A stretch of 64,000 nucleotides of DNA from Thermocrinis ruber (GTDB lineage: Bacteria > Aquificota > Aquificia > Aquificales > Aquificaceae): assembly GCF_000512735.1 (NCBI RefSeq), contig NZ_CP007028.1:310001-374000 (forward strand), in the 5' to 3' direction. The translations under genes and the position numbers were made by a program. How positions within the stretch are numbered: position 1 is the stretch's first letter; each line of letters starts with the position of its first letter. The notes under the pieces were generated by a model. It ran no database searches and was not told the DNA's origin. It saw only the letters and a program-made list of their open reading frames with translations. This document shows positions 44,515-59,642 of this stretch, one piece after another.

Positions 44515-44553
44515 AGTAACTATTATACACCTCGGGTGAGGAATTAGTTCCAT

Positions 44554-44746
44554 ATACGACTTTTCCTAAAAAAGCTGTAGCCCACAACATGGGCATAAAG
44601 GGAGGCAAGTAAGGTAATCCCTTCCCTTCACCACCTGCCTTATACTCTTACATACTCACAACCTCTGTAAACGATCACAAAGGGTTGTCTTATCCTACAA
44701 TTTAAAATGTGAGGTAAGACAGAGGAAAGGTTTATATTTAAAACCT
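44554..44746. other. Intergenic region between RM genes and DUF29
   Basis: 193 bp. It contains an imperfect inverted repeat of 13-bp arms, GTCTTATCCTACA (44687-44699) and TGTGAGGTAAGAC (44708-44720), 10 of 13 pairs matching, and the first copy of AGGTTTATATTTAAA (44728-44742), repeated after the DUF29 gene. No gene seen. Confidence 0.4.
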
Positions 44747-45262
44747 ATGGAACAAACGACCCAAAGCTTAAAAGAGCTATACGAAAAGGATTTTTATCTG
44801 TGGGTAATGGAGAACCTCAAGCTTCTCAAAAACAAAGAGTATGACCTTGTGGATTGGGAGAACCTGTTGGAGGAAATAGAGGATATGGGGCAAAGACATT
44901 ATGATGCTATGGTTAGCTATATGGCGGTAATTATGGAGCATCTGTATAAGTGGGAGAATTTTAGGTATAGTCAGGATATGGGACACGATTGGATAGAAAC
45001 TATTTATACTCACAGGAGAAAGGTAGCAAGAATTTTTAGAAAACACCCATCCTTGAGAGTAAAGGCTCAGGGGAAAGAGGTCCTACAAGAAGCATGGGAA
45101 GAGGGAGTTCATGCGTTAATAGATTGGTTTAAGCTTCCACGAAACAAAGCGTTGGTTCAGTTCTATTTCAAAGGAAGAATTCCAACAGAAAGAGATTTTC
45201 CACAAGAATGTCCTTATAGCCTTGAACAAATCATGGAGTACGAACCATGGCTTGAAAAGTGA
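44747..45262 (+). CDS. DUF29 family protein
   Basis: 171 residues with the DUF29 pattern: LYEKDFYLWVMENLKLLKNKEYDLVDWENLLEEIEDMGQRHYDAMVSYMAVIMEHLYKWEN, then HDWIETIYTHRRKVARIFRKHPSLR and the C-terminal CPYSLEQIMEYEPW. The family is widespread in cyanobacteria and thermophiles, multi-copy and of unknown function. The gene is flanked by 15-bp direct repeats (44728-44742 and 45262-45276), which may mean it moved as a cassette. Confidence 0.85.
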   Translation: MEQTTQSLKELYEKDFYLWVMENLKLLKNKEYDLVDWENLLEEIEDMGQRHYDAMVSYMAVIMEHLYKWENFRYSQDMGHDWIETIYTHRRKVARIFRKHPSLRVKAQGKEVLQEAWEEGVHALIDWFKLPRNKALVQFYFKGRIPTERDFPQECPYSLEQIMEYEPWLEK

Positions 45263-45448
45263 GGTTTATATTTAAACCCATACGTCGGGTGAGAAATTAC
45301 CCCCATATTTGAGACTTCCAAACTATCCACTAAACGCGTACATGCAAACTTAAAAATCTACCACATAAAACGACACAGCTTCCATTTCAAAACTTTACAC
45401 CTACTCTATCTTGTATAACTGTAAATCCCATTTAAGGAGGTGAAAACC
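45263..45448. other. Intergenic leader of the small membrane protein gene
   Basis: 186 bp, AT-rich. It holds the second AGGTTTATATTTAAA repeat, a segment at 45285-45309 similar to 44532-44556 (20 of 25 positions), and TATAAC at 45414-45419 as a possible -10. No other gene seen. Confidence 0.35.
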
Positions 45449-45565
45449 ATGATGCTACCAGAGCCCTTTAGGTTTCTAAGGATAGGCTGGTGGATAGTTC
45501 ATATAATTGGCATTAGCCTTGTGTTCTACCTTGGACATAAGTTCGGCGGTGCAATATTTGGTTAA
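45449..45565 (+). CDS. Small single-span membrane protein, 38 residues
   Basis: An open reading frame of 38 codons starting ATG ATG, with an ideal AAGGAGGTG Shine-Dalgarno 8 nt upstream. Product: MLPEPFRFLRIGWW at the N-terminus, then a hydrophobic helix IVHIIGISLVFYLGHKFGGAIFG. One transmembrane span with a basic N-terminal side. It is followed by a strong intrinsic terminator, so it is a single-gene unit. I do not recognise it. Size and layout recall small accessory subunits of respiratory enzymes or transporters, but nothing in the sequence proves that. Confidence 0.75.
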   Translation: MMLPEPFRFLRIGWWIVHIIGISLVFYLGHKFGGAIFG

Positions 45566-45584
45566 AGATGCCAAAGCTTACCCT

Positions 45585-45617
45585 CCCTCCCAGTGGGAGG
45601 GCTGTTTTATATTTTTC
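45585..45617 (+). terminator. Intrinsic terminator after the 38-residue protein gene
   Basis: Perfect 7-bp stem CCCTCCC (45585-45591) and GGGAGGG (45595-45601) around a 3-nt loop, followed by CTGTTTTATATTTTT. Confidence 0.85.
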
Positions 45618-45684
45618 TAAGATACAAACTTGTGGTGATGGGTTGGGTGGGTATAAGTCCATAATTTAAACGGAGGACAGGTTC

Positions 45685-46422
45685 ATGAAAGCTTTTATAG
45701 TAGAAGACGAGCCGATAGCGAGGGAGAGACTAAAGAGATTGTTAAAAGAGATCGGTGGCATTGACATAATCGGAGAAGCAGACAGCAAAGAAAAAGCCCT
45801 ATCAGAGATAAAAGATAAAGAAATTGATGTGCTGTTTTTGGACATTAAACTTCCGGATGGTACAGGCTTAGAAATTGCAAAAGAAGTGATAGAAACGATG
45901 GAAGAGCCACCATACATAATCTTCACAACCGCTTACGGAGAGTTTGCGCTGGAAGCTTTCAAAGTAAATGCAATAGACTACCTTTTAAAGCCCTTCACAA
46001 AAGAGGACGTAGAAAAGGCGCTAAGCAAAATAAAAAGCACAAAAAGTAAAATATCAAACCTCGCAAAGATAGCAACCATTACCACCGGCACAGACATACT
46101 CATACCCGTAAAGCATCTTAGCAAAGTGGTTCTTTTAAAACCAGATGATATTTACTACATAAAAGCTGAACTTTCTGAGACGGTCATAAAGACAAAGGAT
46201 AGGGAATATTTCTCCAGCAGGAAGCTTTATGAATTTGAGGAACTCTTAAAAAACAGAGGATTTTTCAGAGTTCACAGAAGCTATTTAGTAAACCTCGCAA
46301 AAATAAAAGAGATGAGGTCAGTAGAGCAGAGCAAATTTCTAATCACCTTCCAAGATATTTCAGACACCATAAAAACAAGCAGGGACGGTGCAAAACATTT
46401 AAGGGAATACCTAAACATTTGA
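45685..46422 (+). CDS. LytTR-family response regulator
   Basis: 245 residues. Receiver domain 1-115 with EDEPIARERLKRLL, phospho-Asp in VLFLDIKLPDGTG and the Lys in YLLKPFTKED. C-terminal LytTR DNA-binding domain with IPVKHLSKVVLLKPDDIYYIKAE, YFSSRKLYEFEELL and GFFRVHRSYLVNLAKIKEM. Such regulators bind pairs of direct repeats. The matching LytS-type kinase is three genes on (48943-49935), so they should form one system controlling this cluster. AT-rich codon use compared with flanking housekeeping genes. Confidence 0.92.
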   Translation: MKAFIVEDEPIARERLKRLLKEIGGIDIIGEADSKEKALSEIKDKEIDVLFLDIKLPDGTGLEIAKEVIETMEEPPYIIFTTAYGEFALEAFKVNAIDYLLKPFTKEDVEKALSKIKSTKSKISNLAKIATITTGTDILIPVKHLSKVVLLKPDDIYYIKAELSETVIKTKDREYFSSRKLYEFEELLKNRGFFRVHRSYLVNLAKIKEMRSVEQSKFLITFQDISDTIKTSRDGAKHLREYLNI

Positions 46423-46432
46423 ACGTATAGGG

Positions 46433-47368
46433 ATGGTTCAATACAAACCCAGAATCGTCATAAGCAGGTGTCTAAACATAGCACCCGTTAGATACAACGG
46501 CGGAATTATTAACGATGAATTCAGCAAAAAACTCCTTGACTATGTTGAATACATAGCAGTATGCCCGGAAGTGGATATAGGAATGCCCGTTCCAAGACCA
46601 ACCGTTTTGCTTTACAAAAAAGGCGATCAAATAAGAATGATAGAGCCCAATAGCAAGAAGGATTACACGGACGAAATGCTAAAATTTTCAGAAACTTTTC
46701 TAAAGTCCCTCGGAGAAGTTGACGGCTTTTTACTAAAGGCAAAATCTCCAAGCTGTGGAGTAAAGGACACTAAACTTTATCAGGAGAACCTAAAAGGTCT
46801 GATAAATGCAAGAAGTAGCGGTCTGTTTGCCCAAAGGGCAATGGAATACTATCCGTATTTGCCCATTGAAGATGAAGGAAGATTAAACGATTATTGGATA
46901 AGAAGGGACTTTTTGACAAAGATTTTCTCACACGCAAGGTTCAGATATCTGAAAAACAACTACAAAGATATTAACGACTTACTAAAATTCCACCAAGAAC
47001 ACAAGTATTTACTCATGCTTTATGACCCACACACCCTAAAGCAGATGGGAAACCTTCTTGCCAACTGGAAAAAGTATGGGTTGGATGAAACTATGAAACG
47101 CTATGCAAACCTATTCCACAGAGCTTTGAGTAAGAAATCAGACATAAACAAGCATTCCAACGTCCTTCAGCACATCTACGGACACCTTTCAGAAAAAATT
47201 TCCGACTCAGAAAAAAGACATTTACTTAAGATGCTTGATAGACTGAGAAAGGGCAAGCTTCAACTTGAAACCCTCCTTGAATACATCAAAGGCTTTATAT
47301 ACAGGTTTAACGATAAATATTTACAATCCCAGATTTATCTTAGTCCTTTCCCGGAGGAGTTGATTTAG
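46433..47368 (+). CDS. YbgA-type protein: DUF523 fused to DUF1722
   Basis: 311 residues. N-terminal DUF523 (RIVISRCLNIAPVRYNGGIINDEF, CPEVDIGMPVPRP, AKSPSCGVKDTKLY with conserved Cys residues) and C-terminal DUF1722 (KYLLMLYDPHTLKQMGNLLANWKKY ... NVLQHIYGHLSEKIS ... LDRLRKGKLQLETLLEYIKGFIYRF). In many bacteria this fusion sits next to photolyase genes and is thought to be linked to light or DNA-damage responses; its biochemical role is unknown. A photolyase lies in this same cluster at 50.6 kb. Confidence 0.88.
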   Translation: MVQYKPRIVISRCLNIAPVRYNGGIINDEFSKKLLDYVEYIAVCPEVDIGMPVPRPTVLLYKKGDQIRMIEPNSKKDYTDEMLKFSETFLKSLGEVDGFLLKAKSPSCGVKDTKLYQENLKGLINARSSGLFAQRAMEYYPYLPIEDEGRLNDYWIRRDFLTKIFSHARFRYLKNNYKDINDLLKFHQEHKYLLMLYDPHTLKQMGNLLANWKKYGLDETMKRYANLFHRALSKKSDINKHSNVLQHIYGHLSEKISDSEKRHLLKMLDRLRKGKLQLETLLEYIKGFIYRFNDKYLQSQIYLSPFPEELI

Positions 47369-47419
47369 ACTTAATCCCTAAATTTCAAAATCTAACCGCA
47401 TAATGAAATAACCAGTCTT

Positions 47420-47440
47420 CAAACTTTCAATGAAGGTTTG
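47420..47440. promoter_or_regulatory. 21-bp palindrome upstream of the CrtI-like gene
   Basis: Arms CAAACTTTCA and TGAAGGTTTG around a central A match at 9 of 10 pairs. It lies 52 bp before the start codon, just upstream of an AT-rich TTTATAAAT, as expected for an operator or activator site. Confidence 0.4.
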
Positions 47441-47492
47441 TATCTTTATAAATAGCAACCCGCAAATGTTCTTTCTAAGCTGAGGATTTCCT

Positions 47493-48959
47493 ATGTTTGA
47501 TTATGTGATTGTTGGTGGCGGTATTGGTGGAGTAGTTTCTTACGCTATATTAAAAAAGATAGGTAGAAACGTTGCTTTGCTTGAAAAGGAACCATACTTG
47601 GGCGGTTGTAGTGCAACTTTTAGAAGAAAAAACTACCTATACAACGCTGGAGCTTCCACTTTGGTTGGTCTTGAAGAGCACATGCCATTGGGCAAGGTCT
47701 TTAAATTCTTAAACCTTCCAAAGCCAAAAGTGAAAAAACTTGAAGTTCCAATGGTCGTTTATGTTGGAGATAAAGTAATCAAAAGATACTCAGATAGAGA
47801 AAAAACAATTTTTGAGCTTGAGAAAAATTTTAACTACAAAAACCTAAAATCCCTTTGGCAAAAGGTTTATTCTATATCTGATGCCAACTGGCAGAACATC
47901 TACAGCGTGATACCTATAAACTACAAAAACCCAAAACTACTTTTAAAAAAGTTCTTTGAAAATTGCAGATACATAATGCAAACCTTACCCTATCACTTCA
48001 AGACTTCCTACGAGTTTTTCAAAGATCACTTGGGAAATTTTGATGAGGATTTCAAGCACTTTTTAGACAATCAGATTCTGATGACATCGCAAGGATACAG
48101 TGAAGAGGTTCCTATATCTGTTGGTGCTATGGGTTTAACATACCCAAACCTTGATAATTACTACGTTTATGGTGGAATGGGAAAGGTCTTTGACTTTTTA
48201 GCCCACGACTACAAGAACGTTTTTTTAAGGCATAGGGTAATAAAAATTAGAAAAGTAAAAGATGTTTTCCAGGTTATAACAGACAAGGGAGTTTTTGAGG
48301 CTAAAAACGTGATCCTAAATAAAACCATTTGGGATTACTGCGACTTGCTTGAGGATTTGAAAGAGAATTGCATCAAAAACAGAAAGATATACTCAAAAAT
48401 ATGGTCAAGCTTAACAATCTACTTTAACGTAGAAGATAAAGAGAACTTAATTGATGAATATCACTACCAGATAATTCACAAAGACATAAATCCTTACACC
48501 GGTAGTAATTCCTTCTTTGTATCCGTGTCAGACAAAGAGGACGAAGTGCTTACAAAGGATGGCAAGAAATCTGTAACTATTTCCACACACTGCAAAATAT
48601 CCCTATGGCAGGATTTAGACAAGCAGGAATATCTTGAGAAAAAAGAGAAGGCAAAGGAATTTATCTTAAATAAACTTTTTGAGTATGTGCCCAAGTTTAA
48701 ATACCTCAGCATAGAAAATGTTATAGTAGGAACTCCAAAGACCTTTCAAAGATACACTGGAAGGTACAATGGAACGGTAGGAGGAATACCGCTTATAAAG
48801 GACTACATTCCGCTAAGGTATCCTTTTAACTTTACACCAATAAAAGGTTTGTATTTGGTTGGAGACTCTGTTTTCCCAGGTCAAGGCTGGCCTGGTGTCA
48901 TAGTTGGCGTGCTAAACTTACTTCTGCAAATAGAGGATATAGATGAGATACTTTATTGA
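47493..48959 (+). CDS. CrtI-family FAD-dependent oxidoreductase (carotenoid desaturase/isomerase-like)
   Basis: 488 residues. The N-terminal dinucleotide-binding motif is YVIVGGGIGGVVSYAILKKIGRNVALLEKEPYLGG, followed by CSATFRRKNYLYNAGAST, and the C-terminus has GLYLVGDSVFPGQGWPGVIVGVLN, the FAD-proximal block of the phytoene desaturase/carotene isomerase family. Substrate unknown: no phytoene synthase or other carotenoid gene is nearby. In this context a light-protective pigment or retinoid-like reaction is a reasonable guess. It overlaps the kinase gene by 17 bp. Confidence 0.82.
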   Translation: MFDYVIVGGGIGGVVSYAILKKIGRNVALLEKEPYLGGCSATFRRKNYLYNAGASTLVGLEEHMPLGKVFKFLNLPKPKVKKLEVPMVVYVGDKVIKRYSDREKTIFELEKNFNYKNLKSLWQKVYSISDANWQNIYSVIPINYKNPKLLLKKFFENCRYIMQTLPYHFKTSYEFFKDHLGNFDEDFKHFLDNQILMTSQGYSEEVPISVGAMGLTYPNLDNYYVYGGMGKVFDFLAHDYKNVFLRHRVIKIRKVKDVFQVITDKGVFEAKNVILNKTIWDYCDLLEDLKENCIKNRKIYSKIWSSLTIYFNVEDKENLIDEYHYQIIHKDINPYTGSNSFFVSVSDKEDEVLTKDGKKSVTISTHCKISLWQDLDKQEYLEKKEKAKEFILNKLFEYVPKFKYLSIENVIVGTPKTFQRYTGRYNGTVGGIPLIKDYIPLRYPFNFTPIKGLYLVGDSVFPGQGWPGVIVGVLNLLLQIEDIDEILY

Positions 48960-49935
48960 GATAAACAGAAAAGACTGGACGATAGTGTTTGTCTTTGGCT
49001 TAGTGTTTGGTTCAATTCTTGGCGGTTTTATATCTCTAATTTTGAACATTCCCGTTATAAAGGGAATGATTTCCGGTGCTATTTTTGGATTTTTTATATT
49101 TGTGTTTTCTTTTACTTTAATCAATCTAAGCAACAAGAAGATCCTGCCCTTGTTGAGCGATAAATACTGGACTTTTGTGAGTCTCTTAATGGCTTTCTTT
49201 GCTGGATTTCTTGGAAGTATAACCGCCTTTGAATTTATAAAGATGCTAAAACTGATAGAACTGGAGTTTTCCGTTCTACTTCTCCTCTATCTGAGCGCAA
49301 TGGTAGGACTCTTGACAATGTTAATAGGTAATCTTTTATACATGATTGTAAATTCCAAGAAAGTAGAGGAAGAGTTGAATAGGTTAAACATAGAGCTAAG
49401 GCTAAAAGCATTAGAGTATCAGATAAATCCACACTTTTTATTCAACGCTTTAAACACACTCTCGGAGTTAATTTACATAGACCCAAAGCTTGCGGAAAAA
49501 GGAATGCTAAAACTATCTCAATTCCTAAGAATGATCATAGACGAGAATAGCATCATAACCTTACAGGATGAGCTTAAAATAGTGAAAAACTTTATCTTTA
49601 TTGAGAAGTTAAGATTTCCCGCCATAGAGTTTGAGTTTAACATAGACAAAGATACACTATCTTTGCAAGTCCCTAAGATGTCCATACAGCTTCTTGTTGA
49701 AAATGCCATAAAGCATGGTTTGAGAAACAACGGAAAAGTTATCATAAACTCTTACATAAAAGATGGATATCTTTATGTGGAGGTTAAAGATAGCGGAAAA
49801 GGTTTTGAAGATATAAAGGAGGGAACGGGTCTTAAAAATCTGAGAGAGAGATTAAAGATATTTTTCAACGGAGAGTTAGAATACTTTTATGATGGAAAGT
49901 TTTCCACATTCAGATTTTTTTATAAAATCCTTTAG
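48943..49935 (+). CDS. LytS-type sensor histidine kinase
   Basis: 330 residues. Four to five transmembrane helices in residues about 10-140, then the His_kinase domain with the phospho-His in LEYQINPHFLFNALNTLSELIY and a C-terminal HATPase (LLVENAIKHGLRNN, VKDSGKGFEDIKEGTGLKNLRERL). No PAS, LOV or other soluble sensor domain is visible, so the membrane part senses the signal. It should phosphorylate the LytTR regulator at 45.7 kb. It converges on the flavin reductase gene with a 26-bp overlap. Confidence 0.92.
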   Translation: MRYFIEINRKDWTIVFVFGLVFGSILGGFISLILNIPVIKGMISGAIFGFFIFVFSFTLINLSNKKILPLLSDKYWTFVSLLMAFFAGFLGSITAFEFIKMLKLIELEFSVLLLLYLSAMVGLLTMLIGNLLYMIVNSKKVEEELNRLNIELRLKALEYQINPHFLFNALNTLSELIYIDPKLAEKGMLKLSQFLRMIIDENSIITLQDELKIVKNFIFIEKLRFPAIEFEFNIDKDTLSLQVPKMSIQLLVENAIKHGLRNNGKVIINSYIKDGYLYVEVKDSGKGFEDIKEGTGLKNLRERLKIFFNGELEYFYDGKFSTFRFFYKIL

Positions 49936-50422
49936 TGTTGAAGCAGTAGTAGTTCTTTCCCATTGAGAAAACTAACTTATTCTTGGGTTTTACCTTTCCT
50001 CGCTTGTACTTTATTGCTAAAACCCTACCAATCACGAGGGAATGATCCTGAAAATCCAATTTTTCATAAACTTCACACTCATAAACCATAAAGGACTCTA
50101 AGATGCTTTTTGAAGCCACTTTTTCGCTATCTATCAAATGTATGTTCTTCATTAAGCTTAGTTTATCAACTTGGTCTCCGTGATAAGAGCCTGCAATAAG
50201 AATTTGTTCAAAGTACTCTGATGTTAAAAAATTGATTGTGAAGTTGTCTTTCAAAAGCCTGTAGCTGTAGTTTGTCTTATCTATGGATATAGAGTATAAA
50301 AAGGGATTTTTATTTACAGGCGTATGCCAGCCAACGGTAAAAGGATTTTCGCCCACGACCACTATAACGAGCGGCCGTGGGACATATCCAAGGGTATAAC
50401 CATTCTCTATTGTTTTAAACAT
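49910..50422 (-). CDS. Flavin reductase-like FMN-binding split-barrel protein
   Basis: 170 residues. RPLVIVVVGENPFTVGWHTPVNKNPFLYSISIDKTNYSYRLLKDNFTINFLTSEYFEQILIAGSYHGDQVDKL is the flavin-reductase-like pattern, followed by SFMVYECEVYEKLDFQDHSLVIGRVLAI. Such proteins reduce FMN/FAD with NAD(P)H or use bound FMN. It could supply reduced flavin to the divergent photolyase; that is inference from position. Confidence 0.82.
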   Translation of the reverse strand: MFKTIENGYTLGYVPRPLVIVVVGENPFTVGWHTPVNKNPFLYSISIDKTNYSYRLLKDNFTINFLTSEYFEQILIAGSYHGDQVDKLSLMKNIHLIDSEKVASKSILESFMVYECEVYEKLDFQDHSLVIGRVLAIKYKRGKVKPKNKLVFSMGKNYYCFNTKGFYKKI

Positions 50423-50572
50423 TTGCTTTTTGCTTACTAAAGGTACTCGACCAACACATTAGGGCTACTAAAAACTTCCTCATGGTACTGCTTCCTAAGG
50501 TCTATTTCACTGGACATTCTACAGGAAATGTTTTTCATGATGAAGTTAATTTTTATCGCATTAAACTTAAAA

Positions 50573-50593
50573 TTTTACAGGTTATTTGTAAAA
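50573..50593. promoter_or_regulatory. Inverted repeat in the photolyase/flavin reductase intergenic region
   Basis: Perfect 7-bp arms TTTTACA (50573-50579) and TGTAAAA (50587-50593), 7 bp apart, 45 bp before the photolyase ATG. This is a plausible operator for a dimeric regulator. The rest of the 216-bp divergent region (50423-50638) shows no gene. Confidence 0.4.
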
Positions 50594-50638
50594 AAACTAA
50601 AATAAGCATGAGTTATTATGGAAAAAAGGAGATAAGTA

Positions 50639-52009
50639 ATGGAGCAAGAATTCACAGGAAGAGTAAAGGTTATAAACCGCAGACAGTTTAACACAAATGG
50701 CAAATACATAATATACTGGATTTCTCACAGCCACAGGGCACACTTCAACCATAGCCTTGAGTTTGCCATAGAGCTGTCAAACCAAAGCGGAAAACCACTA
50801 TTGGTATACTTCCTAATAACAGACAAGTATAAATACTCAAACGCACGATACTACAAATTTATGTTGGATGGGATTTTAGAAGCCAAAAAATCCGTAGAAG
50901 AGAGAGGGATAAAGTTTGCTATAGAAAAGGTAAATGATATTAGACAAAGGATTATAGAGCTATCAGAGAATGCCTATGCTTTGATTACAGATAAAGCATA
51001 CTTGAAGTATCACAGAAAGCTAAACAAATACATAGCGGACAGATTAGATGTTCCAGTGTATGAAATAGAGTCTGATGTGTGCGTTCCAGTTGAGATTGCA
51101 TCAGACAGGCAAGAACCTTATGCCTTTACCTTTAGAAAAAAGATTTACAGTTTGTTGGACAAATACATTGTTGAACTAAAGCCAAGGGAGCCGAAGATTA
51201 AATCGGTTAGCTTTGATTTTGGGATAGAGGAGATAGCTTTCAACAACTCCTTGGAGATTTTAAACATTCTCAACATAGACAAAAGCGTTAGCTTATCACC
51301 TTTTGTGGGAGGCTACAGTCAAGCAAGAAAATACTTGGAGGAGTTTATTGAGAAAAAACTGCATAGATACAAAGAGTTCAGGTCTCATCCGGAGCTTGAC
51401 TATCAGTCAAACCTTAGTCCTTATTTGCACTTTGGACAGATCTCGCCCATAGAAGTGGTCCTTGAGGTTTTATCAAAGTATGGAAGGAATGATGAAAACG
51501 TAGATAGCTTTTTTAACGAGCTTATAGTTTGGAGGGAGCTTGCGAGGAACTTTTGCTACTACAATCCAAACTATAATCAGTATGAAGGTATTCCGGAATG
51601 GGCTAAAGAAACATTGGAAGAACACAAAAACGACAAGAGGGAGTATATTTACACGATTGAAGAGCTTGAAAATGCAAAAACTCACGATGAATATTGGAAT
51701 TCCGCACAGTTAGAACTTTTGAAAACAGGGAAGATGCACAACTACATGAGAATGTATTGGTGCAAAAAGCTTATAGAATGGACGGATGACCCAAAGAAAG
51801 CCTTTGATATAGCGTGCTATCTGAACGATAAATACGAGCTTGATGGAAGGGACCCAAACGGTTATGCGGGAATATCTTGGTGTTTTGGAACCCACGACAG
51901 ACCTTGGAAAGAGAGAAAAATCTTTGGAAAAATCCGATACATGAGTGCATCGGGCTTAGAAGCAAAGTTTGACATTAAAAAGTATGTAGAAAAAGTAAAG
52001 AACTTATGA
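50639..52009 (+). CDS. Class II CPD photolyase
   Basis: 456 residues. The N-terminal photolyase domain (YIIYWISHSHRAHFNHSLEFAIELSNQSGKPLLVYFLI) and the class II FAD-binding C-terminus (HDEYWNSAQLELLKTGKMHNYMRMYWCKKLIEWT, then LDGRDPNGYAGISWCFGTHDRPWKERKIFGKIRYM) are complete. It repairs cyclobutane pyrimidine dimers with light energy. AAGGAG precedes the ATG. AT-rich, unlike most of the window, so probably acquired together with the upstream cluster. Confidence 0.95.
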   Translation: MEQEFTGRVKVINRRQFNTNGKYIIYWISHSHRAHFNHSLEFAIELSNQSGKPLLVYFLITDKYKYSNARYYKFMLDGILEAKKSVEERGIKFAIEKVNDIRQRIIELSENAYALITDKAYLKYHRKLNKYIADRLDVPVYEIESDVCVPVEIASDRQEPYAFTFRKKIYSLLDKYIVELKPREPKIKSVSFDFGIEEIAFNNSLEILNILNIDKSVSLSPFVGGYSQARKYLEEFIEKKLHRYKEFRSHPELDYQSNLSPYLHFGQISPIEVVLEVLSKYGRNDENVDSFFNELIVWRELARNFCYYNPNYNQYEGIPEWAKETLEEHKNDKREYIYTIEELENAKTHDEYWNSAQLELLKTGKMHNYMRMYWCKKLIEWTDDPKKAFDIACYLNDKYELDGRDPNGYAGISWCFGTHDRPWKERKIFGKIRYMSASGLEAKFDIKKYVEKVKNL

Positions 52010-52012
52010 AGC

Positions 52013-52357
52013 TTATTCACTCAGGACTTCAAGGGAAGAAAGAACACGCCTTAGGTCTCCCTTTATACGCACCCTTCCGCTGGCAATGTATTGAAGAATC
52101 CTCTGGGGCTTTTCTAAGAGCCTTTTAAACTCTCTGTAACCCAAGTATATTTTACTGTCTGAGATGTCCTCCTGATGAACTTCCTTTATTTTTCCCTCTC
52201 CTACCAAAAACAGGACCTTCTCAAAGCTATGGGGTAGTTCTATTGCCACCAGTATAGGAGGGGATATTTTTGTTAGCTTTTCCCTGTGTCCTTCCTCCAG
52301 CTTGTGTGCCAGAGCCCTGAGCTCTATTTTGATGTCTTCAGAAGTGGCTTTCAACAT
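52013..52357 (-). CDS. Hypothetical protein, possibly SCP2-like
   Basis: 114 residues. The arrangement of HKLEEGHREKLTKISPPILVAIELPHSFEKVLFLVGEGKIKEVHQEDISDSKIYLGYREFKRLLEKPQRILQYIASGRVRIKGDLRRVLSSL resembles the sterol-carrier-protein-2 fold (a strand pair, a lipid-facing middle and a final VRIKGD..V..L). Lipid binding is inferred weakly. It ends the minus-strand operon that starts at 55.85 kb and overlaps the gene before it by 20 bp. Confidence 0.5.
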   Translation of the reverse strand: MLKATSEDIKIELRALAHKLEEGHREKLTKISPPILVAIELPHSFEKVLFLVGEGKIKEVHQEDISDSKIYLGYREFKRLLEKPQRILQYIASGRVRIKGDLRRVLSSLEVLSE

Positions 52358-52595
52358 GGATTATGCTTTTCTCTCCGCAGAGCTCATTTACCAGAGCTTC
52401 CAAGTATTGATGGGCTTCCTCCTCGGTGGGATATATACCAAGGATGGCGGGGAGGAGGGGCTGGGGCAAATGAACCACCAGATTATACACCCTTCTCCTT
52501 TTGCCCTCCACCTCTATTACGCTCTCTTCTATAGAAAAGGCTATTGCATGGTAGGCGTTTATATACCTACCGCTCCTTGTCTTTATCAGTTTCAT
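52338..52595 (-). CDS. Hypothetical protein, 85 residues
   Basis: Not recognised. Beta-rich start (RSGRYINAYHAIAFSIEESVIEVEGKRRRVYNLVVHLP) followed by a helix (PTEEEAHQYLEALVNELCGEK). It sits in the metal ATPase operon between the coiled-coil protein and the SCP2-like protein, abutting the former and overlapping the latter. Tight packing supports a real gene. Confidence 0.55.
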   Translation of the reverse strand: MKLIKTRSGRYINAYHAIAFSIEESVIEVEGKRRRVYNLVVHLPQPLLPAILGIYPTEEEAHQYLEALVNELCGEKSIIHVESHF

Positions 52596-52867
52596 TATTT
52601 TTGCTCTTCCTCTTTCTTTTCCTCCTTGAGGGCACCTTTGGCTCCTTCAATTGCACCAACAGCGGCGCCCTTTACCACTGCAAAGGCTTTCTCCGCTATT
52701 TCCATGGCGGTTTTGCCCACCTCCGAAGCAGTTTCCACCAGCTTTTTAACTGCTTCCTGAGGAAGCTCCTTTAGAGACTTGCCCTCCTCAACGGAGAGCT
52801 TCTTCTTGAGTTCTTCCAGCTCTTGCTTGATCCTCTCTAACTCTTGCTTTAGGTCCTTCTCTTCCAT
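52595..52867 (-). CDS. Small coiled-coil/amphipathic protein
   Basis: 90 residues. A coiled coil at 1-40 (EKDLKQELERIKQELEELKKKLS), then an Ala/Gly-rich amphipathic stretch (VETASEVGKTAMEIAEKAFAVVKGAAVGAIEGAKGALKEEKK) that recalls LEA-like or membrane-surface helices. No known family. A GGAGG precedes its ATG. It lies directly after the P-type ATPase gene. Confidence 0.6.
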   Translation of the reverse strand: MEEKDLKQELERIKQELEELKKKLSVEEGKSLKELPQEAVKKLVETASEVGKTAMEIAEKAFAVVKGAAVGAIEGAKGALKEEKKEEEQK

Positions 52868-52879
52868 GGCTAAACCTCC

Positions 52880-54958
52880 TTAAATTTTTTTAAGGGCATA
52901 GGTAGCTAAAGCGATAGTGCTACCGTTGTTTATTAAGGTGGCAATGCTTGGACCTATCAGTCCAAGGGCAGAGCCCACTAAGCCTACCGTGTTTGCTATG
53001 GCGTTCAGGCTGTATATTCTGGATAACTTTCTCATGAGCCCTTGGGACACATCCACCACATCCAAAAGGTGCCACAAACTGTCTCCGATAACCACATCCG
53101 CTACCTCTATGGCTATGTCCGTTCCGCTTCTTAGAGATATACCCACGTTTGCACTGGTCAGGGCTGGCGAGTCGTTTACTCCATCTCCAACAAAGACTAC
53201 TATCCTGCCTTCTTCCCTGAGCTTTTTGACGATCTGAGCCTTCTCTGCGGGAAAGACCCTCGCATAAAATTGGTCCACGCCCAAAGTTTTGGCTATGTAG
53301 CTGGCTACACCCTCGTTGTCGCCAGTGCAAAGGATAACCCTCTTGCCCCTGCTTTTCAGGGCTCTGACCACATCCCTAGCTTCCTCTCTCAGTGGGTCCG
53401 AGAAGGTGATAAGCCCCACAATTTTTCTCTCTTGGACAAGATACAGGACGCTTTTTCCCTCCGAGTGGAACTTATCCACCAGCTCTCTAATCTCCTGGGA
53501 GATCTTTATTCTCTTTTTTTGCATAAATCGTGTGCTACCAAGCAAAAAGTGCTTTCCAGCAATAACGCCTTCTATACCAAGCCCTATATGATACTTGGAA
53601 TCCAGTCTTGGCAATAGCGTTATTCCCCTCTCCTCCGCCAGCCTTACTATTGCCCTTGCTACAGGATGGGTGATCCTCTGCTCAAGAGATGCACCATAAA
53701 GCAGAACATCCTCCTCTGAGATGGACAAACCCACCACATCCATTATGCGAGGGTGCCCCACTGTCAGGGTGCCTGTCTTGTCCATTACAAAGGTGTCCGC
53801 TTTTGCCAAAAGCTCCAGCTTGCTTCCACTTTTTACCAAAATACCTCTCTCAGCCAGTTGGGATATGGCACTGAGAACACCCACAGGAGTAGAAAGATGC
53901 ACGCCCGTGTGATAATCCACTATTAGCACAGAAGACAGCCTCTGAAGGTTTCTCGTAAGGGCATAAGCGGAAAGCCCTACTGCCATAGTAGGGAGGACGA
54001 ATCTGTTGGCAAACTCTTCTGCCTTCTTTTGAATGCTCAAAGGCTCCTTTATGTTTTGCTCTATGATCTTTACTATGCCCGCAACCACCGTGTCTTCTCC
54101 CACCGCCTGAACTCTTACATAGAGCTTTCCATCCTCCACAAGGGTACCCGCATAGACCTTGTTCCCAGACCTCTTTAAAACAGGATTTGACTCGCCCGTT
54201 AGCGATGCCTGATTTACTAAAGCTTCTCCCTCTATAACCTCTCCATCTGCGGTAATCTTCTCTCCTGCATAGACTACTATGATATCCCCCACCTTTAGCT
54301 CTTCAGCCCTTACCCTTTTTGCCTGTCCGTCTGCAACCACCAGCCAAGCATAATCCTTTCTATACTCCATTAGGGCTTCTATGCTACTGTATGCCTTCCT
54401 TTCTATCTTTTCCTCCAAATAATCCCCAAGGGACAAAAGCCAAGCCATAAGCTGGGCGGAGAAGGGGCTACCCGAAAGGGAGGTGAGAACTACGGCGGAC
54501 GCATCAAGAGTATGAACATCTATCTTCCTTCTTTTCAGAGAGTTAAAGGCTTTTCTAAAGACGGGCAGGCTGGAGAAGAGGGCGAGACCTCTCAAAAGAG
54601 GGTTTGGTAGAGGCAGAAAATTTAGCAATAGCCCAAGGCTTGCCACTCCAAACCAAAAGCTATCGCCTCCATCCTTCTCTGGGCTAATTCTAACCTTTTC
54701 TTTGCTGAGGTCCTCCAAAAAGAGTTCAGGGGTAGAAGTTTGAAGGTAGTTTATAAAGCCTATCAGGTCAAACTCAGATGGCTCGTAGCGTATGGTTATA
54801 CTTCCTGAGGATTTGCTGTAAGCTACTTCCTTTACACCTCCGAACTTCTCAAAGAAGGCTCCTATGACCTCCTCCGGGTGGTGGAGTAGGCTAAAAAGAG
54901 GCGAGGAGATTTTGAGGCTACCTGCCCTGAGCCTTTTGATCTGGTAAGGTATGGGCAT
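52880..54958 (-). CDS. P1B-type metal-transporting ATPase without canonical CPx motif
   Basis: 692 residues. An HMA_2-like N-terminal domain (about 1-85) without CxxC, then actuator TGES (ASLTGESNP), phosphorylation DKTGTLT (VMDKTGTLTVGHP) and hinge GDGVNDSPAL. The ion-site helix reads VDYHTGVHLSTPVGVLSAI where CPC/CPH/SPC would be expected, so metal specificity cannot be read from the usual code; Mn, Zn or Co are candidates. It starts with TGATG overlap to the small TM protein gene, so they are translationally coupled. Confidence 0.88.
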   Translation of the reverse strand: MPIPYQIKRLRAGSLKISSPLFSLLHHPEEVIGAFFEKFGGVKEVAYSKSSGSITIRYEPSEFDLIGFINYLQTSTPELFLEDLSKEKVRISPEKDGGDSFWFGVASLGLLLNFLPLPNPLLRGLALFSSLPVFRKAFNSLKRRKIDVHTLDASAVVLTSLSGSPFSAQLMAWLLSLGDYLEEKIERKAYSSIEALMEYRKDYAWLVVADGQAKRVRAEELKVGDIIVVYAGEKITADGEVIEGEALVNQASLTGESNPVLKRSGNKVYAGTLVEDGKLYVRVQAVGEDTVVAGIVKIIEQNIKEPLSIQKKAEEFANRFVLPTMAVGLSAYALTRNLQRLSSVLIVDYHTGVHLSTPVGVLSAISQLAERGILVKSGSKLELLAKADTFVMDKTGTLTVGHPRIMDVVGLSISEEDVLLYGASLEQRITHPVARAIVRLAEERGITLLPRLDSKYHIGLGIEGVIAGKHFLLGSTRFMQKKRIKISQEIRELVDKFHSEGKSVLYLVQERKIVGLITFSDPLREEARDVVRALKSRGKRVILCTGDNEGVASYIAKTLGVDQFYARVFPAEKAQIVKKLREEGRIVVFVGDGVNDSPALTSANVGISLRSGTDIAIEVADVVIGDSLWHLLDVVDVSQGLMRKLSRIYSLNAIANTVGLVGSALGLIGPSIATLINNGSTIALATYALKKI

Positions 54959-55158
54959 CAGCCTTCCTCTTTCTTCTCTTGAAGTTTGCTCTCCAATGCT
55001 TTAATTAGGGCTTCTATTTCCTTTTGAGCTTCTTCTAACTTTTTGTGCTCTTGCATTCTGCTTAGCATATAGGCACCAAGAATGCCAAGTCCAAAACCCA
55101 AGGCAAAGCTAAAGGGTCCCGAACAGAAAGTCCTGCTTAGGATCTGACTAAAGTTCAT
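54958..55158 (-). CDS. Small membrane-anchored coiled-coil protein of the metal ATPase operon
   Basis: 66 residues: one transmembrane helix (GPFSFALGFGLGILGAYMLSRM) and a charged coiled coil (EHKKLEEAQKEIEALIKALESKLQEKKEEG). Immediately upstream of and coupled to the P-type ATPase gene. In layout it resembles PacL-type/DUF1490 small proteins that dock on P-type ATPases; primary sequence similarity is not strong. No Cys-rich or His-rich metal motif. Confidence 0.65.
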   Translation of the reverse strand: MNFSQILSRTFCSGPFSFALGFGLGILGAYMLSRMQEHKKLEEAQKEIEALIKALESKLQEKKEEG

Positions 55159-55170
55159 CTCTTAACCTCC

Positions 55171-55485
55171 TTACAGGTTTTGTTTTATGCGTTGCAAAGC
55201 TTCCTGCTGTTTTTGGAGTATCTCAAGCTTTCTTTCAATCTCTAACTTATAAAGGTGTTTTGCCTCTGCCACCACATCCTCCCAGAACTCCTTGTTCTCA
55301 TCTATGCTGGCTGACAGCCACTCCTTGAAGGCTATAACCTCCTTGGTGGCAGACACCAGCAAAGGTCTTGAGTCCTTTAAGAGCCTGTTTAGTACCACAA
55401 GACCCACAAATGCTCCCACACCGTAAAGGAGCATGTTGGTGCTTAGGCATCCTCCTATGGTGGATGGAATGTTAAAGTTCAGCAT
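55171..55485 (-). CDS. Small membrane protein of the metal ATPase operon (PacL/DUF5132-like)
   Basis: 104 residues: N-terminal PSTIGGCLSTN, transmembrane MLLYGVGAFVGLVVLNRLL, then KDSRPLLVSATKEVIAFKEWLSASIDENKEFWEDVVAEAKHLYKLEIERKLEILQKQQEALQRIKQ. A Gly-rich span followed by SATKE...EDVVAEA is like DUF1490/PacL proteins next to CtpC-type ATPases and DUF5132 proteins next to other P-type ATPases. It has an AAAGGAGG-type leader shared with the 66-residue protein. Confidence 0.6.
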   Translation of the reverse strand: MLNFNIPSTIGGCLSTNMLLYGVGAFVGLVVLNRLLKDSRPLLVSATKEVIAFKEWLSASIDENKEFWEDVVAEAKHLYKLEIERKLEILQKQQEALQRIKQNL

Positions 55486-55488
55486 CCT

Positions 55489-55854
55489 TTACCTCCCAAA
55501 GGTAGTTTTAAGGGTAGGTACAATAAACATAGTGCATAAAGAAAAACTTAGCAATCCTACCGCAAAACCAAAGGTAAAAACAGAAAAGGCAAGCTTGAGG
55601 GCAGGGTGCTTGATGAAAGGAGAAAGATAAAAATGCAAATCTTCAATCGTTAGACTTTCCCTTCTCTCTAAGTTCTTACGCAGGCTTTCTAATAGGGCTT
55701 GGTCCTCTACTTTGAGTTTTAAAGTCTTGTAACCTTCCTTTTCTATTGTTATACCCTTTAAACCCTCCACCCTACTTTTAAAGAGAACCTTCTCCTCCAC
55801 GCTATCAAAGTATATGCTCAGCATGTTGCCATAGGTGGCTACGTGATTTATCAT
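55489..55854 (-). CDS. HMA_2-like membrane-anchored protein, first gene of the metal ATPase operon
   Basis: 121 residues. N-terminal ferredoxin-like domain without CxxC (VATYGNMLSIYFDSVEEKVLFKSRVEGLKGITIEKEGYKTLKLKVED), then IEDLHFYLSPFIKHPALKLAFSVFTFGFAVGLLSFSLCTMF with one or two transmembrane segments. The FIKHPALK motif is typical of HMA_2-domain proteins found beside P-type ATPases. Likely promoter signals lie just upstream (55878-55899). Confidence 0.6.
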   Translation of the reverse strand: MINHVATYGNMLSIYFDSVEEKVLFKSRVEGLKGITIEKEGYKTLKLKVEDQALLESLRKNLERRESLTIEDLHFYLSPFIKHPALKLAFSVFTFGFAVGLLSFSLCTMFIVPTLKTTFGR

Positions 55855-55877
55855 TAGCTATATTGTAAAGGTAAAAC

Positions 55878-55899
55878 GTTAAGAAATTGTTAAGAAAAA
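55878..55899. promoter_or_regulatory. Tandem 11-bp repeats upstream of the metal ATPase operon
   Basis: GTTAAGAAATT (55878-55888) and GTTAAGAAAAA (55889-55899) lie 24-45 bp before the operon start. On the coding strand they read as CTTAA-N6-CTTAA, the 11-bp period favoured by OmpR/PhoB-family regulators, which often control metal efflux. Confidence 0.45.
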
Positions 55900-56132: not shown

Positions 56133-57545
56133 TCAATGCCTATGAAAGTGCTGGGCTGGGAAAAAGAGTATGGCAATCAGACTGAACAATGTCAGCAAAA
56201 GATATACCACCGGAAGGATGGAGGAAACTAAGAATACTGAAAGACGCCTGTCTTTTCCAATAAACTCTGTTCTTCTCCAGAGTATATGCATGCTCCAGAA
56301 TCCCGCTACGAACGGGAAAATCCTAAAGATATGTAGCCAATGGTCTCCTCTCTTTGCTAAAGGTTCCGCTTGTATGCCAAGCCCAAAAGCTTGAGAAAAG
56401 CCATTTACTATGTTGTGGTAATACTCTATAAAGAAGAACTCAAGCACGTGGGAAAGGCCTCCCACTATCATCAAAGGTGCGAAGGCGTATCCAAGGGTGA
56501 GAAGGACTTCTCTAAAGCTTTTTCCTGTAATCTTGGCTATTAGAGTGAAGCTTGCCCAGACTAAAAACAGCACCAAGGAAAGTGCCATCAACATGGCAAC
56601 AAGCCCGGTCATATCCACCCACTTGGGAAGACCAAAGGTCTTTTGTAGATAGTTTCCAACTATCACCCAAGGCATGTATTCAGAAAGGGCAGTTCTTGAT
56701 AGTCCATGATGAAATCGCATGGTAAAGGTTATTACCGCCACAAGGAGTATATAGACCATAACCTCTATCATTTTTGAATTTTTGATCCTTTCGTAAAGGG
56801 AATATCCAAACTTTCTAAACTCCAGCTTTACCGCGTCGCACGCATGGGCACACTCCATGCACATGGTGCAGTACATCATAGACTTTCTTTCTTCAAACTT
56901 TGAAGGGTTTAGCTCGTAGGGACATGCCAAAGCACAGTCGGGCTTTTTACAGCTTTTACACTCTTCCTCGTAGGTGGAAAGCCATACAGGAGATGTCCTT
57001 GCAAAGGCGGTATTAACAGAACCGATGGGACATATATATTTACAGTAAGCCATACCTCTAAATAGGGAGAAGAATAGTATTGAAAGTATGGTGAAAAATA
57101 GGAAGAAAATTGCCGTGATAAGTGGGCTTTTCAAAAAGCCTGGAAAAGTATATATCACAAACCAGTAGGCTAAGATGTTGAAGCCTATAAGACCTATGTA
57201 GGGATTGGCAAGCCATCTGGGAACCCTTAACTTTAATCCAAACTTGGTTATGTGCTTTCCCAAAAATCCGTGGGGACAGACCATACAGAAGACATTTCCA
57301 AGGGTTGGAAGCGTTATAACCATGAAGAAGGGCCAAAATATGGACCAAAACACCGCAGTGGTAAATATGTTCTCTTTGGTAGGGTTGAGTATGCCGTATA
57401 TTATGGCATAAACAAGCAGGAATAGAGTAGTAAGCCTGTAAAGGGTAAGCATGTATTTGTTTTTAAAGAAAAAGCTAAGCACGGGTATGCCAAAGATGTC
57501 CCTTTGGCTTCTCTTGGCTATGAAATGAACCCTTTGTGTTTGCAT
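56133..57545 (-). CDS. Polytopic membrane Fe-S protein (NapH/NosR/CcoG-like)
   Basis: 470 residues with about ten transmembrane helices. Cys motifs: FCMVCPHGFLGKH and CKYICPIGSVNTAFAR facing the membrane interface as in NapH/NosR, then two 4Fe-4S sites, CKSCKKPDCALACPYELNP and CTMCMECAHACDAVK. It should move electrons across or along the membrane. It follows the TonB receptor gene by 12 bp with AAGGAGG before its ATG, so a role in reducing an imported metal or chelate is likely by position. Confidence 0.8.
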   Translation of the reverse strand: MQTQRVHFIAKRSQRDIFGIPVLSFFFKNKYMLTLYRLTTLFLLVYAIIYGILNPTKENIFTTAVFWSIFWPFFMVITLPTLGNVFCMVCPHGFLGKHITKFGLKLRVPRWLANPYIGLIGFNILAYWFVIYTFPGFLKSPLITAIFFLFFTILSILFFSLFRGMAYCKYICPIGSVNTAFARTSPVWLSTYEEECKSCKKPDCALACPYELNPSKFEERKSMMYCTMCMECAHACDAVKLEFRKFGYSLYERIKNSKMIEVMVYILLVAVITFTMRFHHGLSRTALSEYMPWVIVGNYLQKTFGLPKWVDMTGLVAMLMALSLVLFLVWASFTLIAKITGKSFREVLLTLGYAFAPLMIVGGLSHVLEFFFIEYYHNIVNGFSQAFGLGIQAEPLAKRGDHWLHIFRIFPFVAGFWSMHILWRRTEFIGKDRRLSVFLVSSILPVVYLLLTLFSLIAILFFPAQHFHRH

Positions 57546-57557
57546 GATAAAACCTCC

Positions 57558-59642
57558 TTAAAAGTTGTAGGTAAGCCTTACTAAAAAGGTCCTTGGTGGA
57601 CCCGGAGCATATCTCTTTACGCCAGAGGTGTCCTTTGTAACCTCCACCGCATACTTTTTGTCAAAGAGGTTATCCACCGTGAGGGATAGGTCCAGATTGC
57701 CCCTGCTGTAGCCCACGCTGGCACTGGTGAGAAACTCATAACCTTCATACTTTTCCGTGTTTGCGTTGTCCATGTAGTAGCTTCCCCAAGTATCTGCTTG
57801 CACTCGGAACCTAAAGCCAGAGGTATGCTTGTAGCTTATAAAGGCAGAGTATTGATGTATCGGAATATAAGGAAGCCTGTTTCCGCTTCTATCTATGTTT
57901 GTGCTACCAACCAGCTCACTAAACCTTTTAAACTTATAATCCGAGTAGGCGTATGATGCTCCAACCTCTAAACCTTCTATCAGTTGATAAGTTCCAGCGA
58001 ATTCAAAGCCCTTCTTCTGCGTCTTTCCTGCATTGGTAAATGTAGTTTGTCCACCGGGTTGAATTACCCTAACCACTTCATCCTTAACATCCATAAGATA
58101 AAGGGCTGTGTCAAAGGAAAACTTCTTGTGCCTTGCCTTTAAGCCCACCTCGTAGTTTATAACCTTTGCAAGCTCTAAGTTTGGGTTTGAAGAAAGCTCA
58201 CCGCTGGTGGGCGTGTTGGCTCCTGTGGAAATGTTTCCGTAGATGTTAAGTATGGGTGTTAGCTTGTAAAGAAATCCAACCCTTGGGCTAAAGACGGTGT
58301 AAGTTTTTTCTCTTGAGTAGGCAAAACAGTTTTCTATGCCTGAAGCTGGACACATCTTGTAATTGCCCGCACTAAAGCTGTAATCTCCCCACTTGTATCC
58401 GCTTATGTCAAAATTCACCCTATCAATCCTTGCGCCTACATCTAAGATCCACCTCTCCCTTTGGAAAGACTGCTGAAGAAACACACCCGCCAAAGTGGTT
58501 TTTTGATCTTGCTTTTCCAAAAGGTCTCCCTTGTTGTCCGAAAGGGTGCTTACGATCCTCCCTCCTACTACTTGAACATCCCTGTATTTGAAGTAATTCG
58601 TCTTTTGTTCATCGTGCCTTATGGTAAAGCCTGTGGTTAATATGCCAAGGCTGTGTTTGTAGTTAGCCTGAAGGTCTGCCCCATAGACCCATGTGTCCGC
58701 ATCGTTTATCCTACCAGTTACAGGGTGGTAGTGTTGCCAGTGGTTGAGGTATACCAAAGGAACAAGCTCCCAATTTCCAAAGCTCTTTGTTAGCTTTGAA
58801 CTGAAGAAGAATATCTCCGAGTATCTTCCCATATGCTTCCATGCCTCTGCGGTTCTTGGAACCTTTCCAGTGCGTAAAAACTCAGACCACTGGTCTGTTC
58901 CGGGTCTAACTACCAAAGCTCCGGGCAACTGTAAGCTTGCCTTTGTATAGCTAACATAGTTTTCCCAAGTGTCTCCATTTTCAAACATATAGGAAGGTTG
59001 AAGGGTTATCTGGTTTGTCCAGAATTTGTTCCAAGGTCTCCAAGAGTTGTCGGTTTGCCTCCTGCTTGCGTTAAAGCCCAAGTAAAAGCCCTTTCCAATG
59101 AGTGTGGAGTAATAAAGGTTGTGATTCTGTGTGTTGTAGTCTCCAAAGCCCAGCTTTATAAAGCCCCCTTTCCTTTCAAAGGGATTTTTTGTTATCACAT
59201 TTATAACGCCCCCGGACGCATTCACACCCCAAAGGGTTGAGTTGGGACCCTTTACCACCTCCACCCTTTCAATGAGGGATGTATCCACAAAGTCAAGCCT
59301 TGTAAGGCTGTCCGGGTCGGTGATAGGGACGCCGTTAAGCAATATCATGATCTCCCTTACGCCGTAGGTCGCCTTTAACCCCGCACCCCTTATTATCAAC
59401 CTTGTGTCGTAGCCTTGATTTCTTGAGACAACATTTACACCAGGCACTCCCTGCAGTGCATCGTAGAGGTTTAACATAGGTTTCTCTTGGATCTTTTCTT
59501 TTCCTATCACGCTTACGCTTGCTGGCACATCCTCTGTCTTTCTCTCGGTCCTTGTGGCAGTCACGCTCACCTCCTTGAGTTCCACATCCTTACCAAAGGA
59601 GACCGCCCCAAGCAAAAGCAACGTATAGACCACCCTTTTCAT
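57558..59642 (-). CDS. TonB-dependent outer-membrane receptor
   Basis: 694 residues: signal peptide (VVYTLLLLGAVSFG), TonB-box-like KEVSVTATR, plug domain (YDALQGVPGVNVVSRNQGYDTRLIIRGAGLKATYGVREIMILLNGVPITDPDSLTRLDFVDTSLIERVEVVKGPNSTLWGVNASGGVINVITK) and a 22-strand barrel ending KRYAPGPPRTFLVRLTYNF. Substrate is probably an iron or copper chelate; the barrel has no motif to decide. AGGAGGG Shine-Dalgarno; -10 TATAAT at 59680-59675 on the minus strand. Divergent from exbB. Confidence 0.93.
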   Translation of the reverse strand: MKRVVYTLLLLGAVSFGKDVELKEVSVTATRTERKTEDVPASVSVIGKEKIQEKPMLNLYDALQGVPGVNVVSRNQGYDTRLIIRGAGLKATYGVREIMILLNGVPITDPDSLTRLDFVDTSLIERVEVVKGPNSTLWGVNASGGVINVITKNPFERKGGFIKLGFGDYNTQNHNLYYSTLIGKGFYLGFNASRRQTDNSWRPWNKFWTNQITLQPSYMFENGDTWENYVSYTKASLQLPGALVVRPGTDQWSEFLRTGKVPRTAEAWKHMGRYSEIFFFSSKLTKSFGNWELVPLVYLNHWQHYHPVTGRINDADTWVYGADLQANYKHSLGILTTGFTIRHDEQKTNYFKYRDVQVVGGRIVSTLSDNKGDLLEKQDQKTTLAGVFLQQSFQRERWILDVGARIDRVNFDISGYKWGDYSFSAGNYKMCPASGIENCFAYSREKTYTVFSPRVGFLYKLTPILNIYGNISTGANTPTSGELSSNPNLELAKVINYEVGLKARHKKFSFDTALYLMDVKDEVVRVIQPGGQTTFTNAGKTQKKGFEFAGTYQLIEGLEVGASYAYSDYKFKRFSELVGSTNIDRSGNRLPYIPIHQYSAFISYKHTSGFRFRVQADTWGSYYMDNANTEKYEGYEFLTSASVGYSRGNLDLSLTVDNLFDKKYAVEVTKDTSGVKRYAPGPPRTFLVRLTYNF

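Follow-up and report, generated by a model that had tools for sequence, protein, structure and literature searches.

The minus-strand cassette that occupies positions 52013-55854 of the window (the whole 64,000-nucleotide stretch of Thermocrinis ruber DNA analysed here) is well supported as a member of the Pho regulon, and its homologies suggest an Aquificota branch of those CPx-less P1B ATPase systems that include, in proteobacteria, the ferrosome-type (fez-like) clusters. Since it combines ferrosome-kind parts with phosphate control, our reading is that the Pho regulon has recruited a fez-like system. Such a system would take a divalent metal (most probably Fe2+) from the cytosol, perhaps into a vesicle; we put the probability of this reading at slightly under one half (0.48). 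Its regulation and homology are well supported, whereas the metal, the compartment and the purpose are what we infer. What can be read from the sequence is the seven-gene unit with its Pho box, the similarity of its proteins to HMA_2, DUF5132 and SCP2, the clade of the ATPase and its Cys-free metal site. An earlier sequence-only reading of this DNA had mentioned neither the SCP2 fold nor the kinship with fez-like systems nor control by Pho.

The cassette and its Pho box

Seven ORFs fill the region exactly, in the order p121-p104-p66-ATPase-p90-p85-SCP114 (121, 104, 66, 692, 90, 85 and 114 aa), preceded by a direct repeat:

55878..55894, minus strand: Pho box, CTTAAC-N5-CTTAAC direct repeat (period 11 bp), some 40 nt ahead of the first start codon
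55489..55854, minus strand: p121, HMA_2-like N-terminal domain and one clear membrane span
55171..55485, minus strand: p104, DUF5132-like, with a single clear membrane span; its helical tail is charged and conserved
54958..55158, minus strand: p66, short, one probable span and a coiled tail; conserved in the cassettes, outside named families
52880..54958, minus strand: P1B-type ATPase, 692 aa, N-terminal HMA_2-like domain, DYHTG in TM4 and NN in TM6
52595..52867, minus strand: p90, long amphipathic helix, Ala/Gly-rich C-terminal half
52338..52595, minus strand: p85, small alpha/beta domain, possibly PH-like
52013..52357, minus strand: SCP114, predicted SCP2-type lipid-binding fold

The sequence-only reading had described a tight operon of an ATPase with five or six small proteins; there are six, and the successive intergenic distances are 3, 12, -1, 12, -1 and -20 nt. 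Upstream of p121, a 278-nt gap is followed by a NapH-like gene (56133-57545, a weak match only) and, beyond it, a TonB receptor (57558-59642). At the other end, a convergent gene that we take from its appearance to be photolyase-like ends at 52009, 3 nt from the cassette. A foreign origin of the cassette, judged by GC content, was rejected: its GC is close to that of the right-hand flank, the AT-rich part being that at 41-52 kb. This AT-rich stretch (window 41000-52000, GC 0.34-0.40 against 0.42-0.49 in its flanks) contains restriction-modification-like genes and a LytTR-type regulator with a kinase.

We identify the CTTAAC repeat as a Pho box because the same repeat precedes pstS and phoX in the organism's own genome. 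Over the 1,521,037 bp of T. ruber, 18 matches with at most one mismatch were found, compared with 2 for the control, and nine exact repeats lie at seven places:

upstream of an 83-aa gene and pstS-pstC-pstA-pstB
upstream of phoX, as a triple repeat
upstream of a TonB receptor-ExbB-ExbD run (L203 1067-3286)
upstream of a 69-aa gene
upstream of the cassette
at the contig start (G000:C1:8-24, L199), some 22 nt ahead of the start of dnaA
at one place without clear target

In their 11-bp period, the TTAAC direct repeats that precede pstS, phoX and the cassette resemble those of the bacterial Pho regulon, and the PhoP boxes of B. subtilis look alike. A -10-like hexamer, TACAAT, follows the box at 55862-55867. 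The arrangement recurs: scanning up to 250 bp upstream of 25 cassette loci for CTTAAC-N5-CTTAAC at 10/12 or better, we found the box in 23 (12 exact, 9 with 11/12 and 2 with 10/12), in most cases some 40 nt ahead of the start codon and with a -10-like hexamer behind it; none was found in the upstream regions of L166 and L167. The exact repeat occurs 23 times in 663,726 bases (both strands), the reversed pattern not once. We know of no P1B ATPase cassette among the described members of the Pho regulon. The literature searched, which covered few subscription papers, so that the main ferrosome papers or their supplements may mention Aquificota earlier, contained neither a Pho-controlled P1B or ferrosome cassette nor ferrosomes in Aquificota.

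Fur control of the cassette was rejected, as its best Fur-box scores do not rise above those of shuffled sequences. The same scan in ten gamma- and alphaproteobacterial relatives singled out just two loci, L021 (16/19, 0/100 shuffles) and L014 (14/19, 1/100). In C. difficile the fez genes are repressed by Fur, according to PMC12574912.

Other genes share the repeat. A family of 68-69 aa proteins ending in 'DRTILIESFV.GG.IEN.ITK'-type sequences and lacking any Pfam match is Pho-boxed in T. ruber and several relatives, often beside the cassette (L202 3014-3223; L106 4000-4206; L107 4892-5098; L108 9176-9382; L110, L111, L115); in L106, L107 and L108 the cassette's neighbour has a Pho box of its own. 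In L171 and L173, too, the neighbourhood of the cassette contains a second exact site. TonB receptors adjoin the cassette in L111 and L168, and T. ruber has its Pho-boxed receptor with ExbB and ExbD; given this box and these positions, such receptors may take a phosphorus compound, not iron, as their ligand.

Conservation and phosphate context in Aquificota

Profile searches of 136 Aquificota genomes found p104 in 29 and p85 in 24; with a gene order kept in three families, this rules out a chance assembly. The full order is retained in two families and in a third represented by L166, where p90 was left uncalled by the simple gene caller used. Close full-length relatives of the ATPase were found in Aquificota when it was run against 61 genomes. 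The earlier proposal that the small proteins form a unit with the pump is thus borne out by conserved order and co-occurrence.

p104 accompanies p85 in 21 of 24 genomes, the other three being G080, G111 and G001. Conversely, p85 is missing from 8 of the 29 genomes with p104. Five of these belong to genus g10 (L116-L119, L169), in which a cation-diffusion-facilitator gene after the ATPase replaces p90-p85-SCP114; the p104 of L169 was detected in the 136-genome profile search and is absent from the printed neighbourhood list. In the remaining three (G006, G010, G012) the contigs end inside the cassette. Of the unit, the sister genome G001 (L170) retains no more than 43 residues of SCP114 and a partial match to p85, and in G033 (L113) the ATPase is interrupted by seven stops. 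The cassette is therefore accessory and is being lost in places. In one genome of genus g7 (L175, G012:C27), p104 and p121 are near-identical to those of the window's genus, through either bin contamination or transfer.

Several cassettes have phosphate genes as neighbours, a pattern noticed after the fact. A run of pst-type transporter, PhoU and histidine kinase lies directly upstream in L112 (by Pfam) and L174 (by sequence); pyrophosphatase and PhoU follow the cassette in L166; upstream of the cassette, L111 has PhoD, and both L116 and L117 have a phosphoesterase of PF04185. The SoxB-type genes next to L119 were not counted among the phosphate genes. We counted as cassette genomes the 31 with p104 or p85, leaving out the G001 remnant. 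PhoX, found in 28 of the 136 genomes, is present in 19 of these 31 against 9 of the 105 others (Fisher 5e-9, uncorrected for kinship), or in 17 of 29 when p104 alone defines the set (2e-7, likewise uncorrected).

The pump, its relatives and the small proteins

The ATPase matches TIGR01525 with 480.7 bits (cut-off 346). Its HMA_2-like N-terminal domain exceeds the cut-off in three orthologues and is weaker elsewhere, with no such match in the T. ruber protein itself. A quick tree of 71 sequences divides into 26 pumps with CPx or SPC and 45 that lack CPx (SH-aLRT 99 for the 45-row clade). Within the latter, 21 proteobacterial, 15 Aquificota and 4 cyanobacterial/Deinococcus rows each fall on one side of a branch, and the fourth group is made up of 5 odd rows. 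The Aquificota ATPases share this clade with the proteobacterial fez-like pumps, yet on a separate branch, and the metal-site motifs of TM4 and TM6 change together between the two: all 21 Aquificota rows examined have HTG or NTN with NN, without the TM4 Cys or the TM6 HN, whereas all 24 proteobacterial rows have both (one CPC row of L024 left aside). The metal site of the T. ruber pump is Cys-free. PMC9374683 names HN in TM6 among the features of P1B6, and by this test the Aquificota pump, with NN, is a relative and not a P1B-6 member. Since both the TM4 Cys and the HN are absent, the substrate of FezB cannot be transferred to it.

The loci of the proteobacterial relatives look like fez clusters, with HMA_2 and small span proteins. 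FeoA domains lie beside the pump in L008 and L024, and DUF4405-type (FezC-like) proteins in L011 (2.9e-5), L015 (0.0049) and L024 (0.056), all below cut-off. L024 comes from Solidesulfovibrio; S. magneticus RS-1, which makes ferrosomes and is known as D. magneticus, is assigned to this genus in the taxonomy. With the ferrosome clusters of FezB the cassette has in common a CPx-less P1B ATPase with an N-terminal HMA_2 domain, an HMA_2-type partner, several small membrane proteins and a size of six or seven genes. It differs in an ATPase of its own clade with DYHTG and NN where fez has DYSCA and HN, in a Pho box in place of Fur, and in its additional SCP2, PH-like and amphipathic proteins; none of its seven proteins matches DUF4405 (FezC) in Pfam.

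Cyanobacterial HMA_2-DUF5132-ATPase loci (Calothrix, Gloeothece) are also alike, with a DUF5132 small protein, HMA_2 proteins, a TG-type TM4 and NN in TM6, and are among the nearest clades in the tree; p90, p85 and SCP114, however, were not found there. More broadly, no clear relative of p66, p90, p85 or SCP114 was seen near the ATPases of 79 non-Aquificota loci or of L120-L125. Among Firmicutes, pumps with a CPG motif (several loci, L034-L086) are often preceded by a conserved protein of about 100 aa (YVPVV.RVHG..HPEFHEV).

Which known families do the small proteins resemble? p121, already described as an HMA_2-like membrane protein flanking the ATPase, aligns with the HMA_2 partner proteins of proteobacteria at 96.5% (hhalign); its orthologues match PF19991 weakly, at 6.5e-4 at best, and the window's copy has no Pfam match of its own. 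For p104, a check against DUF5132 had been suggested. The comparison with cyanobacterial DUF5132 proteins gave 92.6% (hhalign, with a template of three sequences only) and an HMM match of 9e-5, but Pfam DUF5132 (PF17195) reaches just 0.016 and 0.038 in its orthologues, below cut-off. Against the small single-span proteins that adjoin proteobacterial pumps, p104 scores 54.9%; hhalign pairs at 20% or less were generally left unprinted. The 'SATKE..EDVVAEA' stretch singled out earlier in this 104-aa protein is real and conserved in the alignment. The earlier descriptions were otherwise mostly right, including the clear span of p104; the span of p66 proved weaker (best 19-residue hydropathy mean 1.47), and p90 is a long amphipathic helix, with a hydrophobic moment of about 0.5 over residues 33-63.

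The two remaining proteins were modelled. SCP114 is just above the Pfam SCP2 cut-off (22.1 bits against 21.3), and its AF2 model (pLDDT 90.4) finds SCP2 and UbiJ rows in Foldseek (best E 3.6e-7, prob 1.00), so that the predicted SCP2 fold holds on both tests. The best AF2 model of p85 reaches pLDDT 94.5, three of the five only 55-67. The PH-like label of p85 is a guess, because Foldseek gave no match at E<=0.001 and the FERM/PH-type rows in VIA are weak (best Z 6.3). None of the six small proteins has a match in PHROGs.

Possible roles of the cassette

In a fez-like system recruited to the Pho regulon, phosphate shortage would induce the cassette, and the small membrane proteins might gather the pump into a platform or vesicle, on whose lipid surface the amphipathic, PH-like and SCP2 proteins could act. 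The pump would move a divalent metal out of the cytosol, most likely Fe2+, as its kin and its Asp/His-rich TM4 suggest; a putative compartment is suggested by the kin and the lipid-type folds. The purpose may be to hold back metal no longer bound by phosphate, or to prime the filling of a store for when phosphate and metal return. Against this reading stand the absent HN and TM4 Cys, the lack of DUF4405 and of a Fur box above shuffles, the two cassette loci without Pho box, PhoX counts that ignore kinship, and the failure to find relatives of p66, p90, p85 and SCP114 near ATPases outside Aquificota.

The main rival, which we consider rather unlikely, is that the cassette makes no organelle but a Pho-controlled platform for metal efflux in the plasma membrane, where p104 and p66 would scaffold and stabilise a pump expelling surplus divalent metal, as PacL does for CtpC. 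Single-span scaffolds beside P1B6-type pumps are a published theme (PMC9374683, PMC13043812), and the PacL (DUF1490)/CtpC effluxosomes of mycobacteria likewise have small single-span proteins tightly encoded with a P1B pump. The span and charged tail of p104 would suit such a platform, as would the TonB receptors that lie close to the cassette both in the window and in L111 and L168. The sequence-only reading had taken p104 to be PacL/DUF1490-like. This membership is not supported: alignment to three DUF1490 proteins gives only 4.6% (hhalign), and the cassette shows no DUF1490 domain, no CPC as in CtpC and no His-rich metal-binding tail (in PacL1 the C-terminal motif is DLHDHDH; PMC9374683). 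DUF1490 was also not found above cut-off in 61 genomes, a zero that is weak alone for a set that had no mycobacterial positive control. HMA_2 for p121, DUF5132 for p104 and the SCP2 fold for SCP114 are a better fit, and the portions of the PacL literature consulted name no SCP2 or amphipathic partners.

Another, quite improbable, idea is that the cassette builds a ferrosome-like, membrane-bounded compartment storing phosphate together with metal, primed by phosphate starvation as ferrosomes are by iron starvation, and that this store is a substitute for polyphosphate. It is suggested by the absence of both PPK1 and PPK2 from 30 of the 31 cassette genomes; the exception, G123, has both enzymes, and its cassette locus, L166, is one of the two without Pho box. 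PPK1 occurs in 19 and PPK2 in 4 of the 136 genomes, and the PPK1 contrast between cassette genomes and others is not significant (p 0.07) and follows family lines. The same absence weakened another candidate, metal release from polyphosphate.

A true iron-storing ferrosome, with the Pho box as a side input, is very unlikely. The clade and the HMA_2 partners shared with fez-like loci, and the FeoA and DUF4405-type genes adjoining relatives, would agree with it, but control is by Pho instead of Fur, the TM4 and TM6 residues differ, FezC is absent from the cassette and 123 of the 136 genomes have ferritin-family genes anyway. That Pho-regulated phosphatases (PhoX, PhoD, PF04185 enzymes) receive their metal from the pump is hardly likely at all: the cassette co-occurs with PhoX and has PhoD or PF04185 beside it in some genomes without PhoX, but 12 of the 31 cassette genomes have no PhoX match, and the TAT signal of PhoX, a weak match, counts against such supply because Tat substrates usually fold and take up their metal in the cytosol.

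If the cassette is a fez-like system recruited to the Pho regulon, deep-branching hyperthermophiles would have a ferrosome-type pump system that belongs to the phosphate regulon, and the handling of metals may be linked to phosphate shortage. Its Cys-free metal site is available for comparison with FezB, and its predicted lipid-binding folds would be added to a system whose membrane shaping is poorly understood. The relation between iron and phosphate in bacterial storage would be directly testable in cultivable Aquificota.
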